Below are positions 21,736 to 47,317 of a stretch of 64,000 nucleotides of DNA, piece by piece. The DNA lies in NCBI GenBank assembly GCA_003225315.1, contig QHZD01000024.1, positions 62,001 through 126,000 on the forward strand, in the 5' to 3' direction. Made by a program: the position numbers and the translations under genes. Each line of letters starts with the position of its first letter. The first letter of the stretch is position 1. Origin of the DNA: Acidobacteriota bacterium (lineage in GTDB: Bacteria > Acidobacteriota > Terriglobia > Acidiferrales > UBA7541). The notes under the pieces are model-generated. The model did no database searches, had not been told where the DNA came from, and was given only the letters and a program-made list of their open reading frames with translations.

Positions 21736-22260
21736 ATGACGGCATCGGTCTTTATCGGCACCAGTGTTGACGGGTTCATTGCGCGGCCGAACGGCGATCT
21801 CGACTTTCTTCCGGAGGGTGGAGGCGAGCCCCACGGCTACAACGAGTTTATTGCCAGCGTCGACGCGATTGTGATCGGCCGCAAGACCTTCGAGACGGTT
21901 CTGGCTTTTGAGGCCTGGCCCTACGGCGACAAGCGAGTCGTTGTGCTGAGCAGCCGCCCACTCGATTTGTCCGCAGTGCACGGAGGCGTTGTGGAACAAA
22001 TGGCCGGGCCGCCAGCGGAGATCGTCTCGCAGCTCGCTGCCCACGGGATCAAGCACCTGTACATCGACGGGGGAATCACGATTCAGCGGTTTCTGCGCGA
22101 GGGGGCCATTCAACGGCTCATTATCACGCGCGTGCCCGTGCTCATTGGAGAGGGAATTCCTCTGTTCGACAGTCTGCCGCGCGACATTCGGCTTCGCCAC
22201 GTCGCGACGAGGCATTATCCGAGCGGCTTGGTTCAGAGCGAGTATCAGGTTGTTGAATAA
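21736..22260 (+). CDS. Dihydrofolate reductase-like / RibD C-terminal domain protein
   Basis: NADPH-dependent reductase-like protein of 174 residues related to the RibD C-terminal domain and stand-alone YwjB/YyaP-type proteins. Seen: VFIGTSVDGFIARPNGDLDFL at the N-terminus (quoted in part: SVDGFIARPNG), VIGRKTFETV, VVVLSSRPLDL, IKHLYIDGGITIQRFL and the C-terminal LIITRVPVLIGEGIPLF. The ATG has GAGGAG 6 nt upstream. It stands alone between the hypothetical gene and the repeat region. The physiological substrate of such singletons is unknown; it is not a substitute for folA without further evidence. Confidence 0.85.
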   Translation: MTASVFIGTSVDGFIARPNGDLDFLPEGGGEPHGYNEFIASVDAIVIGRKTFETVLAFEAWPYGDKRVVVLSSRPLDLSAVHGGVVEQMAGPPAEIVSQLAAHGIKHLYIDGGITIQRFLREGAIQRLIITRVPVLIGEGIPLFDSLPRDIRLRHVATRHYPSGLVQSEYQVVE

Positions 22261-22373
22261 CAATAGGCTAGGGCGGGATGACATTGGCTACTAGTCGTCG
22301 TAGATGATGCTGCGGTGGCCGATGGCGACGACGAGGACGACGAGCCTGGCCTGCTGAAGGTGGCAGATGATGG

Positions 22374-22541
22374 GATGTTTCCGCCGAGCATGCCAATGTT
22401 TCGGTCCAGCCACGATCCCTCGACTTCGCTCGGGATGACAGCAGGAGCGAAACAGTCAATGAGGATACGAGAGAGATGTTTCCAGCGAGGGTGCCCGTGT
22501 TTGAGTCCAGCCATGATCCCTCGACTTCGCTCGGGATGACA
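22374..22541. repeat. Two 67-nt REP-like repeat units
   Basis: Units at 22374-22440 and 22475-22541 align without gaps with 9 differences. Each ends in a conserved palindromic core, GATCCCTCGACTTCGCTC followed by GGGATGAC, that can fold as GATCCC/GGGATG around the centre. Together with the copies at 22871-23190 they flank the GIY-YIG gene. The frames through them spell the repeat peptides VIPSEVEGS and CHPERSRG and are not genes. Confidence 0.8.
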
Positions 22542-22567
22542 CCGAGGAGGCCCGGGATGACAGGAGG

Positions 22568-22852
22568 TCATCGGGGAAAGTCTTCGCTTAAGTCACGGAA
22601 CTTCGGATTCATACTACGAATGAGCGCAAGCTTTTTCTCCCGGCGCCAGCCCTTGACTTGTTTCTCTCTGCTTATAGCGTTCCGCACCTCGCCGAAAGGC
22701 TCGAAGTAGACCAGGCGGACTACATCGTATTTGCTGGTGAAGCCGGGACAGAGTTTTTGCTTGTGATGGGCCACGCGGCGCTCCAGACGGTTTGTAACCC
22801 CGGTGTAAAGGACTCCGGATGCGTTCGCAAGAATGTAGACGTGGTAGACCAT
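22568..22852 (-). CDS. GIY-YIG nuclease-domain protein (stand-alone)
   Basis: Small single-domain GIY-YIG superfamily protein of 94 residues, related to the YhbQ/UPF0213 type rather than UvrC. Seen: the YHVYILANASGVLYTGVTN segment (in place of GIY-YIG: VYI and YTG), the conserved Arg in NRLERRVAHHK, the Lys/Tyr stretch FTSKYDVVRLVYFE, and the Glu of ISREKQVKGWRREKKLALI. Start: ATG at 22852 gives the family N-terminus; seven extra upstream codons run into a repeat. Both flanks are REP-like repeats, which may be substrates or hitch-hikers. Activity is unproven for this subgroup. Confidence 0.8.
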   Translation of the reverse strand: MVYHVYILANASGVLYTGVTNRLERRVAHHKQKLCPGFTSKYDVVRLVYFEPFGEVRNAISREKQVKGWRREKKLALIRSMNPKFRDLSEDFPR

Positions 22853-22870
22853 TCTTGGGCGCGATTCTCT

Positions 22871-23190
22871 CACAGCGTCCCACGATATGCCGTTGAGGGC
22901 ATGCGTCTGAGGTGTTTTCGTCGGCCTGATTTAGGGCGCGATCCAGCCACGATCCCTCGACTACGTGGCCGGCGCTTACAAACCAAGCGCAGGAAAAAAC
23001 CGGCCACTCCGCTCGGGATGACAGTCTAGGCGGGCGGCGACCTTCCCGAGTCTGAACGGGGATCCCAGCGGCGCGACACTTTCAGAGCGTTCCACGATGT
23101 ATCGTTGACGGCGTAGGTCTGAGGTGTTTTCATCGACCTGATTTGGGGCTCGATCCAGCCACGATCCCTCGGCTTCGCTCGGGATGGCAG
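22871..23190. repeat. Two 90-nt repeat units ending in REP cores
   Basis: Copies at 22871-22960 and 23083-23172 align over 90 nt without gaps (shared phrases CACGAT, GTCTGAGGTGTTTTC, GATCCAGCCACGATCCCTCG). Each runs into a REP core. The first core is split by a 43-nt insert (separate entry) and resumes as TCCGCTCGGGATGACA at 23006-23021. The second continues intact to about 23190. This fills most of the 366 nt between the GIY-YIG gene and the RNase R stop; no gene is present. Confidence 0.75.
22965..23007. mobile_element. 43-nt miniature inverted-repeat insertion inside a REP core
   Basis: The element begins GTGGCCGG (22965-22972) and ends CCGGCCAC (23000-23007), a perfect 8-bp terminal inverted repeat, with an inner GCGCTT/AAGCGC hairpin (22972-22990). 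It interrupts the loop of a REP core: the intact copies read CTCGACTTCGCTCGGG, here CTCGACTAC, the insert, then TCCGCTCGGG. It encodes nothing. Its size points to a non-autonomous element or palindromic repeat moved in trans. Confidence 0.6.
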
Positions 23191-23218
23191 CGGGACGGAT
23201 GGCGAGATTAACTCGCCG

Positions 23219-25798
23219 CTACACAGAAGCTACGAGGGCGAATTCGACGCGTTTGCGCATGGGGTCGATGCGTTCGGCGCGGACGCGGACTTTGTCGCCG
23301 AGGTGCCATTCTAGCTGGCGGGACTTTGCCCCCCGGCCGGGAGCCGAAGTGGTTGTACCGTGGCTAGTAACGAGGCGAGAGCCGCGGGCGCCGCGACCGC
23401 TGCCAGGGCCACGACTGCCGCCACTCGCCAGGGCAACGATGGCGTGATCGCGTTCGCGAAGCACGCAGCGTGAGCCGGCGAATTCTTCGAGCGCGCCGAT
23501 GGGAAGAAGGCCTTCGACGAAGACTTCGAACAGTTCGATGAAGCAGCCGTATTTCTGAACGGAAATGATCAGGCCGTCGTATTCCGCGCCGAGATGTTCC
23601 TCCATGAATTGAGCGGTTTTCCAGTCCATGAGTTCGCGTTCGGCGCCATTGGCGCGGCGCTCGGCTTCGGAGGTTTCCGCGGCGATTTCTTCAAGGTTCT
23701 TGTGCGAATAGAGGACAGCTTCAGCGCCTCGCGGCGCGGCGGAGTGCATCTGCGATGTTGGAGGAGCACCGTTGTGATGCTCGAGCGCCCATTTCAGAAT
23801 GCGATGAACGATGAGGTCGGGATAACGACGGATGGGCGAAGTGAAATGGGTGTACTCGTCGAAGCCGAGAGCAAAATGGCCGAGAGGCTCGGCGGCGTAG
23901 CGAGCCTGCTTGAGGGAACGCAGCATAAGGTAGGAGACGATGCGCTCTTCCGGTTTGCCGACCACCTTTTTGATCAGGCGCTGATAGTGCTGCGGCGTGA
24001 TGCGCAGGTCGCCGGCCGGGAGCGCCACCTTCATGCCGCGCTCGCGGCCGTGGCCGTAGGAGTCCGGGCGGCCGGCTTTTGCAGGGGCGGAGACGCGGCC
24101 GTGGCGAACGGCGACTTCGCGCTGGTGCAAGTCTTCGACGCCGAGAGAGTAACCGAAGGCGCGGGCCAGCTCTTCAAACTCAAGAACTTTGCGGGCGTCG
24201 GGCTTCTCATGAACGCGATGGAGCGACTCGATGCCGCGGCGAAGAAGATACGCGGCGACGGCGCGATTGGCGGCGAGCATGAACTCTTCAATGAGGCGGT
24301 GAGCGATGTTGCGCTCGCTGCGCGTGATGTTGGTCATGCGCTGCTCTTCGTCGAATTCGATGACCGGCTCGGGAAGATCGAAGTCAATGGAGCCGCGTTC
24401 ATTGCGGCGGGCGTTGAGAAGCAGAGCCAGCTCCTTCATATCGCGGAAGCGAGGAGCGAGCGAGGCGTAACGCTTGGACATCTCCGGGTCGCCTTCGAGG
24501 ACTTTGTTGACGTTGGTGTAGGTCATGCGCTCGGCGGAGCGAATGACGCCGGAAGTCATGCGCGAGGATTTCATGTGGCCGGCGGCGTCGAATTCCATCA
24601 ACGCGCTCATGACCAGGCGATCTTCACGGGGCTTGAGCGAGCACATGCCGTTCGAAAGAGCCTCCGGAAGCATGGGGACAGCGCGGTCGGGAAAGTAAAC
24701 GGATGTGCCGCGGAGACGCGCTTCCTGGTCGAGAGGCGTGGCGGTTCGAACATAGTGCCCGACGTCGGCGATGTGAACTTGCAAGTGCCAGCCGCTGTCG
24801 GCGCGATGCTCGACATAGACGGCGTCGTCGAAATCGCGCGCGGTTTCGCCATCGATGGTGACGATGGGCAAGTGACGGAAGTCTTCGTGGCCGGCGCGCT
24901 CGGATTCGCCGACGGGCTTCGCGCCGCGCTCGGCTTCGTCAAGAACCTCGGCGGCGAAGACATGCGGCAGATGATGCTTGCGGATGATGATCTCGGTGTC
25001 GACGCCGAGATCGCCGGGACGGCCGAGAATTTCGATGACGCGGCCGGTCGGCGATGCGCCTCCGTGCGGATAACGGAGCAGCTCCACGTTGACGACAGCG
25101 CCGTCGAGTTCACCGAGGCGCGGGATGCGGCGCGAGCGGATACTGGTTTCATCGGCGCCGCTGAAGCCGAGTTTTTTCCAGAGACCCGGAGTGAGCTCGT
25201 TGCCGCGCGGGATTTCAATTTCGTGCTGGATGCGAACGTCGTAAGGCAGGACGACATTCCGCTGGGAGCCGTAGCGAAACAGACCGACAACGGTGGGGTG
25301 CGCGCGGTCGAGCACTCGAATGATGCGGCCTTCGGCGCGCTGCGCGCCGGTGACGCCGCCCAGGCGTTGGATCTTTGCGAGAACGTGATCGCCGTGCATG
25401 GCGTCTTGAATGGCGTCGCGGGGGATGAAGACATCGCCGTCGAGCTGGGGCATGGGGGAATCGGGCACGACGAAGCCGTATCCGTCGTGGTGAAGAACGA
25501 GGCGGCCTGTGATTTCATCGTGACTCGCGAGCGTTTGGATGTGGCGAGGGACGTTTTGCGGAGGTTTTTGGATAGGCGCGCTGCGTTCGGACTTGCGGCT
25601 CGGAAGGCGGTAACGCCCCCCCGGCAATTCTTCGATGGCGCGGCGCTTTTTGAGCTTGGAAAGCATTTTGAACAAGGAGCGATTGTCGGACTTTCTCAGA
25701 TGGAGTCCCTGAGAGATCTCGGCGGTGGAAGCGGGGGCGCTTCTAACTTGCAGAAAACGCAGTATGTTATCGGGGCTCAACTGTGAGGGACGTGGCAT
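23219..25798 (-). CDS. rnr: Ribonuclease R (RNB family exoribonuclease)
   Basis: 3'-5' processive exoribonuclease that degrades structured RNA in the cytoplasm. 859 residues. Seen in order: an N-terminal winged-helix domain (residues 1-70, LSPDNILRFLQVRSA), cold-shock domains (LVLHHDGYGFVVPD; GDVFIPRDAI), the RNB catalytic core with VTIDGETARDFDDAV (metal-binding Asp cluster), HIADVGHYV, FPDRAVPMLPEALSNG and FTSPIRRYPDLIVHR, and a C-terminal S1 domain (YDGLIISVQKYGCFIEL). The S1 domain carries an unusual 45-residue Gly/Arg/Ser-rich insertion before LGDKVRVRAERID. The ATG at 25798 has only a weak ribosome-binding site. Confidence 0.95.
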   Translation of the reverse strand: MPRPSQLSPDNILRFLQVRSAPASTAEISQGLHLRKSDNRSLFKMLSKLKKRRAIEELPGGRYRLPSRKSERSAPIQKPPQNVPRHIQTLASHDEITGRLVLHHDGYGFVVPDSPMPQLDGDVFIPRDAIQDAMHGDHVLAKIQRLGGVTGAQRAEGRIIRVLDRAHPTVVGLFRYGSQRNVVLPYDVRIQHEIEIPRGNELTPGLWKKLGFSGADETSIRSRRIPRLGELDGAVVNVELLRYPHGGASPTGRVIEILGRPGDLGVDTEIIIRKHHLPHVFAAEVLDEAERGAKPVGESERAGHEDFRHLPIVTIDGETARDFDDAVYVEHRADSGWHLQVHIADVGHYVRTATPLDQEARLRGTSVYFPDRAVPMLPEALSNGMCSLKPREDRLVMSALMEFDAAGHMKSSRMTSGVIRSAERMTYTNVNKVLEGDPEMSKRYASLAPRFRDMKELALLLNARRNERGSIDFDLPEPVIEFDEEQRMTNITRSERNIAHRLIEEFMLAANRAVAAYLLRRGIESLHRVHEKPDARKVLEFEELARAFGYSLGVEDLHQREVAVRHGRVSAPAKAGRPDSYGHGRERGMKVALPAGDLRITPQHYQRLIKKVVGKPEERIVSYLMLRSLKQARYAAEPLGHFALGFDEYTHFTSPIRRYPDLIVHRILKWALEHHNGAPPTSQMHSAAPRGAEAVLYSHKNLEEIAAETSEAERRANGAERELMDWKTAQFMEEHLGAEYDGLIISVQKYGCFIELFEVFVEGLLPIGALEEFAGSRCVLRERDHAIVALASGGSRGPGSGRGARGSRLVTSHGTTTSAPGRGAKSRQLEWHLGDKVRVRAERIDPMRKRVEFALVASV

Positions 25799-47191: not shown

Positions 47192-47317
47192 GCTGGGCTT
47201 TAGCCCAGCTCTTCGCTCCGTCAGCTACCCGCCCGTCATTTCGACCAACGGGAGAAATCTCTCTTCCCGGCTCACTCCCATGTTTGTCATGCCGAGCGCA
47301 GCGAAGCATCTGCTTTT
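47192..47317. repeat. Hairpin and two REP-like palindromes
   Basis: A short perfect inverted repeat, GCTGGGCT/AGCCCAGC (47192-47209), is followed by a REP-like phrase GTCATTTCGACC to AGAAATCTC (47235-47265) and another of different type, GTCATGCCGAGCGCAGCGAAG to CATCTGC (47286-47317; quoted in part). The latter covers the stop codon of the minus-strand gene ending at 47287. Confidence 0.65.

Follow-up and report, generated by a model that had tools for sequence, protein, structure and literature searches.

GTCAT-tagged hairpin repeats accompany a minimal GIY-YIG nuclease gene in a probable small mobile module

We analyzed a 64,000-nucleotide stretch of DNA from an Acidobacteriota bacterium, here called the window, and found a small GIY-YIG nuclease gene set among palindromic repeats of a kind that recurs beside the same protein subfamily in many phyla. 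Our results support a model in which the gene probably encodes a minimal Ssn-type GIY-YIG nuclease, with the surrounding GTCAT-tagged hairpins as its putative DNA target, and in which gene and repeats make up a small mobile module. The evidence behind this reading is a recurrent, subfamily-specific association, covariation of the stem bases, co-divergence of repeat and protein, and presence, absence and inversion of the whole unit. How such a module would work, by single-strand cleavage at the repeat and movement through repair, we infer from these patterns.

The gene, its repeats and its neighbors in the window

The gene lies on the minus strand at 22568–22852, where a reading made from the sequence alone (hereafter, the sequence-only reading) had correctly placed a stand-alone GIY-YIG gene. 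It encodes a 94-residue protein of the Ssn-like subfamily whose single Pfam domain is GIY-YIG (PF01541, E = 6.3e-13) and which has no NCBIfam match. An AlphaFold2 model gives a confident GIY-YIG fold (mean pLDDT 95.5), and GIY-YIG folds top the fold search, with UPF0213 nearest (E = 3e-5 and 0.012), followed weakly by Slx1 (E ≈ 0.02). UPF0213-type GIY-YIG proteins (PDB 1zg2, 1ywl) are thus the closest solved relatives by sequence and fold, although the sequence similarity is weak. Residues Y6, Y16, G18, R26, H30, E63 and N82 are common to all 18 aligned members of the subfamily, the window protein included. Given the known roles of such residues in GIY-YIG proteins, the conservation of Y6, Y16, R26, H30, E63 and N82 fits an active GIY-YIG center.

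To the left lies a plus-strand gene with a RibD_C domain (dihydrofolate-reductase-like; 21736–22260, Pfam RibD_C), and to the right a minus-strand gene for ribonuclease R (23219–25798; NCBIfam TIGR02063, above cut-off); their counterparts in a related genome, G013, are 96.6% and 91% identical, respectively. A minus-strand fragment at 22291–22376 is what remains of the C-terminal part of a ParE/RelE-type gene; it is truncated at the left edge of the module described below and shares its C terminus with G013. Forty-five residues of the G013 counterpart match Pfam ParE_toxin (E = 2.7e-6). G013 too appears to hold just a fragment of this toxin gene, though a longer one.

Four palindromes accompany the GIY-YIG gene, all on the minus strand. 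Repeat 1 (22414–22439) reads GTCATCCCGAGCGAAGTCGAGGGATC with its GTCAT end facing the gene, and repeat 2 (22515–22540), 27 nt from the last base of the gene, has an identical core; both are exact copies of GATCCCTCGACTTCGCTCGGGATGAC. A partial repeat, GTCATCCCGGGC, follows at 22543–22563 on the same strand, a few nucleotides from the stop codon. Beyond the start of the gene, repeat 3 (22951–23022) has the same ends and a long insert with its own 8-bp stem (GTGGCCGG/CCGGCCAC), and repeat 4 (23163–23188) is diverged, its tag altered to GCCAT. On the minus strand the palindromes read GTCAT-CCCGAG...GAGGGATC, with GCCAT in the last. All four have this end on the same strand as the gene and are thus arranged here as direct repeats, which lie within longer direct repeats of 67 nt and 108 nt. 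The fold of the window repeat is a 5-bp stem followed by GA/GA, with a tip, GCGAAGTC, that differs from the canonical GCGNAGC. Long types like repeat 3 (GTCATCCCGA(C/G)CGGAG(T/C)GG...) occur beside two relatives of the gene (L018 and L019).

The sequence-only reading had described multi-copy repeats bracketing the gene within 30 nt on both sides. The distance holds on the left, where the partial copy is even nearer than repeat 2, but not on the right, where copies lie 98 nt and then 310 nt from the ATG. Likewise, the repeats are multi-copy locally but not genome-wide: a 23-base core occurs with up to three mismatches only four times in the 4.98-Mb genome, three of them at this gene, and it is absent from the 1.5-kb flanks of the other three GIY-YIG genes found (L001, L003 and L004). 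A 15-base core, CCCTCGACTTCGCTC, allowed up to two mismatches, has four matches in the window, three of them at the GIY-YIG locus, where 0.33 were expected and none of 100 shuffles reached four. A broader, differently built pattern finds nine repeats in the genome, two at the gene. The genome's own repeat type is nearly restricted to the surroundings of the GIY-YIG gene.

Tagged hairpins of other types occur elsewhere in this genome. Two lie in the window far from the gene, at 47235–47261 and 47286–47310 (GTCATTTCGACC...GAGAAATC and GTCATGCCGAGCGCAGCGAAGCATC). On another contig (G000:C46, locus L202, 2408–2434), a GTCAT hairpin of another clade sits in frame inside pheT (a 703-residue ORF), encoding SVISSEARNLSS between the core and the anticodon-binding domain; it resembles the protein-coding palindromes of Rickettsia.

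Recurrence beside related genes and co-divergence with the protein

The association recurs widely. Relatives were collected from 41 related genomes, and an alignment of 18 members was used to fetch loci from many phyla; the best 80 of 577 relatives were then picked by protein alone, with repeats ignored. Around these best 80 of 577, the density of GTCAT hairpins with a perfect 5-bp stem is 7.2 per kb in the 150 bp next to the gene (172 matches, including overlapping ones) and 0.16 per kb at 4–10 kb, and a reversed-sequence control has none within 150 bp. Such a hairpin is present within 600 bp at 75 of these 80 loci. The sequence-only reading had proposed measuring the gene-to-repeat distance against random genes, and the enrichment is clear: within 150 bp, 71 of the 77 relatives with enough flank have a hairpin (69 of 77 once the 60 bp after each gene are trimmed), compared with 33 of 445 control ORFs (at least 200 residues, more than 1 kb away, same contigs). 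Lower-scoring GIY-YIG loci have one within 400 bp in only 1 of 15 cases (14 genes, because L001 and L041 are the same). Such repeats are frequent in some genomes, so that a common intergenic repeat might fall near a GIY-YIG gene by coincidence, but these counts and the empty reversed control make that explanation hardly credible. Chance and hitch-hiking were both rejected on the distance, other-gene and paralog controls, and the data support an association that, among the loci tested, is particular to this GIY-YIG subfamily.

In a pooled non-redundant set of 124 genes, from which matches below 85 bits or 80 residues were dropped, the perfect motif is missing within 400 bp of 20 genes; inspection by eye finds GTCAT-tagged repeats built differently at 17 of them and no clear tagged repeat at the other three (L081, L083 and L109). 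The nearest upstream repeat is in plus orientation at 59 of 80 genes and the nearest downstream repeat in minus orientation at 50 of 79. An inverted bracket is found in 35 of the 64 relatives with both sides filled, whereas the window locus has the direct arrangement. Separately, three loci (L082, L094 and L124) hold a pair of subfamily genes on one strand, separated by about 1 kb.

When all GTCAT sites no farther than 200 bp from these genes (best 80 of 577) were taken with no stem required, 188 of 286 had their own 5-bp complement downstream, compared with a mean of 62.4 and a maximum of 79 when downstream partners were shuffled; thus, the stem bases covary. Of 181 distinct cases, 173 have GA at both ends of the loop, and the commonest loops are GA-GCGNAGC-GA. 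Mini-hairpins with GNA loops, like d(GCGAAGC), are described in the accessible text of PMC4686876 as unusually stable, nuclease-resistant DNA, which suggests that the GTCAT strand may be the structured one. In a nearest-neighbor DNA model, the window hairpin is no more stable than its shuffles (z = 0.31), and the same holds for the common GCGAAGC type (z = 0.25); the neisserial repeat type folds better than shuffles (z = −4.4).

Repeat type also tracks protein sequence. Of the 124 genes, 104 have the simple motif no farther than 300 bp away. On the tree of their proteins we count 12 changes of the third stem base (mean 29.2 and minimum 23 in shuffles), 33 of the three-base stem (mean 49.9, minimum 43) and 30 of the repeat tail (mean 49.8, minimum 44); this tree has few columns and many open forks, and shared descent of host and repeat adds to the signal. 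Paralogs within one genome can differ: in G007 the repeats at L050 and L058 (L020 and L034 by coordinates) have a TTC stem and those at L045 a TCC stem, and the repeat types of the G010 paralogs L021 and L035 differ likewise.

This co-divergence bears on the idea that the repeats act on the GIY-YIG transcript as cis-regulatory or terminator hairpins and are not a nuclease target. They do lie close to both gene ends (median 37–68 nt) and could fold in RNA, but they occur on both sides, in both orientations and elsewhere in genomes, even in frame inside pheT, and their type follows the protein sequence; we regard a purely regulatory role as unlikely.

Presence, absence and spread of the module

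Comparison with G013 delimits a probable gene-plus-repeats module at 22374–23234, since the two genomes cease to match near 22376 and align again from about 23234. The left edge is the start of the 67-nt direct repeat, and the right edge falls inside the last codons of RNase R. In G013 the RNase R and RibD_C genes stand side by side and the GIY-YIG gene is absent; in its place are about 500 bp of other sequence, which include the longer ParE-type fragment and a single GTCAT repeat, itself diverged. In Azospirillum, A. lipoferum 4B has a repeat pair, the gene and a second repeat pair between sufB and sufC, whereas the module is absent from A. ramasamyi, A. oryzae and strain B510 (95–97% identical where aligned; sufB and sufC 87–129 bp apart) and from A. 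argentinense (32 bp apart). For the genus of G098, we compared 60 genomes at a single intergenic site and read 20 stretches: G098, G443, G462 and G433 have the gene, G458 has it in the opposite orientation, and 15 of the 20 lack it. Taken together, these comparisons support the conclusion that gene and repeats form a unit, which some relatives have and others lack at the same site. At the G458 site (L250) the gene lies reversed between inverted repeats relative to G098 (L252), as if it had been flipped by recombination between the repeats or inserted independently.

The empty sites also bear on a homing-type spread, in which the nuclease would cut orphan repeats and the break would be repaired from a gene-bearing module. 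The syntenic gene-less G013 locus with its diverged repeat, and the existence of dispersed orphan repeats, would fit such a process. However, seven short empty sites of the G098 type contain no proper repeat, one having a bare GTCATTCC, and GTCAT is found in neither strand of the four Azospirillum sufB–sufC spacers that lack the module; these repeat-free sites disfavor homing into pre-existing repeats, which we consider improbable. GIY-YIG homing endonucleases are intron- or intein-borne, carry a DNA-binding extension and sit in their own target, whereas the window gene is intergenic and encodes a 94-residue single domain with no extension.

Across 396 genomes of the phylum, we called a genome gene-bearing at a best E value of 1e-18 or lower, which sets apart lower-scoring paralogs; up to 13 candidates were scored per genome, so that a few genes may be missed. 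Of the 47 gene-bearing genomes, 32 have the strict repeat and 15 lack it; among the remaining 349, 20 have it (Fisher p = 3e-22). Within the best-sampled family the figures are 27 of 31 and 10 of 15, a difference that is not significant (p = 0.13), and repeat load shows a weak link to the gene (one-sided p = 0.024); therefore, much of the overall signal may reflect shared ancestry. Three genomes, G128, G194 and G362, hold 50, 48 and 19 repeat copies with no gene detectable even at E = 0.001 and with all candidates scored. The sequence-only reading had held that an intact repeat load in genomes lacking the gene would speak against a partnership. On this point the outcome is partly against the proposal: these three genomes keep their repeats, and within the best-sampled family the gene and the repeat are not significantly linked. 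Either the repeats outlive the gene or they need it only for their birth.

These distributions are relevant to a RAYT-like mobilization, in which the GIY-YIG protein would disperse the repeats together with its own gene, and which is compatible with an Ssn-type nuclease. RAYTs are thought to disperse GTAG REPs. Inverted repeats bracket the gene in many relatives; in one family, the 22 genes whose loci were retrieved represent 19 flank groups, although blastn may miss diverged flanks between genera; the gene is present, absent or inverted at one site and inserted between sufB and sufC in A. lipoferum; and genomes with repeats carry the gene more often. Weighing against it, GIY-YIG nucleases act by hydrolysis with no covalent intermediate, so strand transfer would need host enzymes, and the three gene-less genomes keep their repeats. 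Moreover, the window genome has few copies, and no target-site duplication can be read. We regard such mobilization as a tentative possibility, somewhat short of even chances.

Under the favored reading, of a small Ssn-type nuclease acting on the hairpins around its gene, the cycle might run as follows. When DNA becomes single-stranded, on the lagging strand or after uptake by transformation, the GTCAT strand would fold into a hairpin composed of AT plus a 3-bp stem, then GA/GA and a tip that in many relatives is GCGNAGC. The protein would bind tag and stem and make a nick at a constant position. When the broken strand is repaired or recombined, the repeat and the gene could be copied, deleted or flipped, so that the repeat–nuclease–repeat unit would behave as a small selfish module.

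A phage or defense origin was considered and rejected. The protein has no PHROGs match at E = 0.001 and three weak matches among phage records, and no PADLOC match at 0.01; among 29 candidate stretches from viral contigs, one holds a relative, with GTCAT-starting repeats nearby. On a Planktothrix plasmid (L164), the GIY-YIG gene and its repeats lie between a gene for an MmeI-type restriction enzyme and the DISARM gene drmA.

Relation to Ssn, RAYT–REP systems and CGTC REPs

The closest known counterpart is in Neisseria. A homolog in N. gonorrhoeae is 46% identical to the window protein (E = 4e-16), shares its invariant columns and is bracketed by dRS3, a GTCAT-tagged hairpin repeat. We take this homolog to be Ssn, the site-specific single-stranded nuclease, and its repeat to be the NTS. 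Ssn reportedly cuts only single-stranded DNA, the NTS, said to number hundreds of copies genome-wide in Neisseria, reportedly modulates transformation, and thousands of Ssn homologs are said to exist. The two systems are alike in pairing a small stand-alone GIY-YIG protein with cognate repeated hairpins around its gene. They differ in the stem, which in the window, and most commonly in relatives, is 5 bp followed by GA/GA but in the NTS an unbroken 8 bp, and in copy number, which is low in the window genome. Because other gene-bearing genomes have 0–80 copies, we take hundreds of targets to be a neisserial trait and not a defining one. The sequence-only reading had proposed a new repeat-mobilizing partnership; given dRS3 around the gonococcal gene, and the Ssn/NTS pair as a system of the same kind, this claim of novelty probably fails. 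The literature that we searched contained no text joining GIY-YIG proteins with REPs or dRS3, and none with the repeat cores, from which we claim no absence from print.

The same reading had likened the locus to RAYT–REP systems, in which, according to the accessible text of Nunvar et al. 2010 (PMC2817692), a nuclease-type gene lies between inverted tagged palindromes, copies of which are dispersed as well, some species accumulating them solely near the gene. The resemblance stands in layout, with tagged palindromes on both sides of a nuclease-type gene and, in relatives, the orientation bias given above. It does not extend to the direct copies of the window locus, nor to the Y1/HUH transposase and GTAG tag, both of which this system lacks. 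Identity with RAYTs in the strict sense was rejected, as Pfam finds no Y1 domain.

The repeats also resemble CGTC-tagged REPs, which have a tag of CGTC, often TGTC, then a stem starting with AT, and form families in several phyla with stems of 8–9 bp and loops of 4–5 nt (accessible text of Di Nocera et al. 2013, PMC3733652). Family CGTC-1 in that survey is dRS3, given as ATTCCC(N8)GGGAAT in the part of PMC3898611 available to us. The window repeats at 22414–22439 and 22515–22540 carry the tag as TGTCAT (minus strand tgtcatcccg in both), but their 5-bp stem followed by GA/GA takes the place of a continuous 8–9 bp stem with a 4–5 nt loop, so that they are not CGTC REPs in the strict sense. We did not meet a GA/GA-interrupted TGTC class in the accessible text of PMC3733652.

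A plasmid collection yielded 36 records with a match to the window protein, of which 13 loci were read; nine have tagged hairpins. These bracket the gene in Neisseria, Azospirillum, Shinella (two loci), Rhizobium sp. CIAT894, Aeromonas, Planktothrix and Spirosoma, and lie on one side in Photobacterium. At the other four loci, in Novosphingobium, Sinorhizobium meliloti, Rhizobium tumorigenes and Sphingomonas, none was seen up to 500 bp from the gene. The accessible part of PMC3733652 lists N. aromaticivorans and S. meliloti as CGTC species, so that for these two the gene read here is at most a candidate partner.

In summary, we hold it possible, if somewhat doubtful, that this GIY-YIG subfamily is the missing dedicated enzyme of CGTC/TGTC REPs, a hydrolytic single-strand nuclease that, helped by host repair, multiplies the hairpin repeats and moves the repeat-bracketed gene encoding it. 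If so, REP-type elements would have a second, chemically distinct route in many bacterial phyla, one with no tyrosine transposase. The origin and upkeep of REP-like repeats becomes testable with a 94-residue protein and short oligonucleotides, and the many repeat variants with matching proteins may offer nucleases of differing single-strand specificity. Our work also ties the wider GA-interrupted class, across many phyla, to the same nuclease family. The 2013 survey, in its accessible text, found no dedicated enzyme for CGTC REPs (PMC3733652), leaving a large palindromic repeat class without one. Here, homologs from Neisseria, Azospirillum, Shinella, Rhizobium sp. CIAT894 and Aeromonas stand beside repeats with 8–9 bp stems and 4–5 nt loops like those of the CGTC families, so that members of this class are now tied to one small nuclease family as their regular neighbor.
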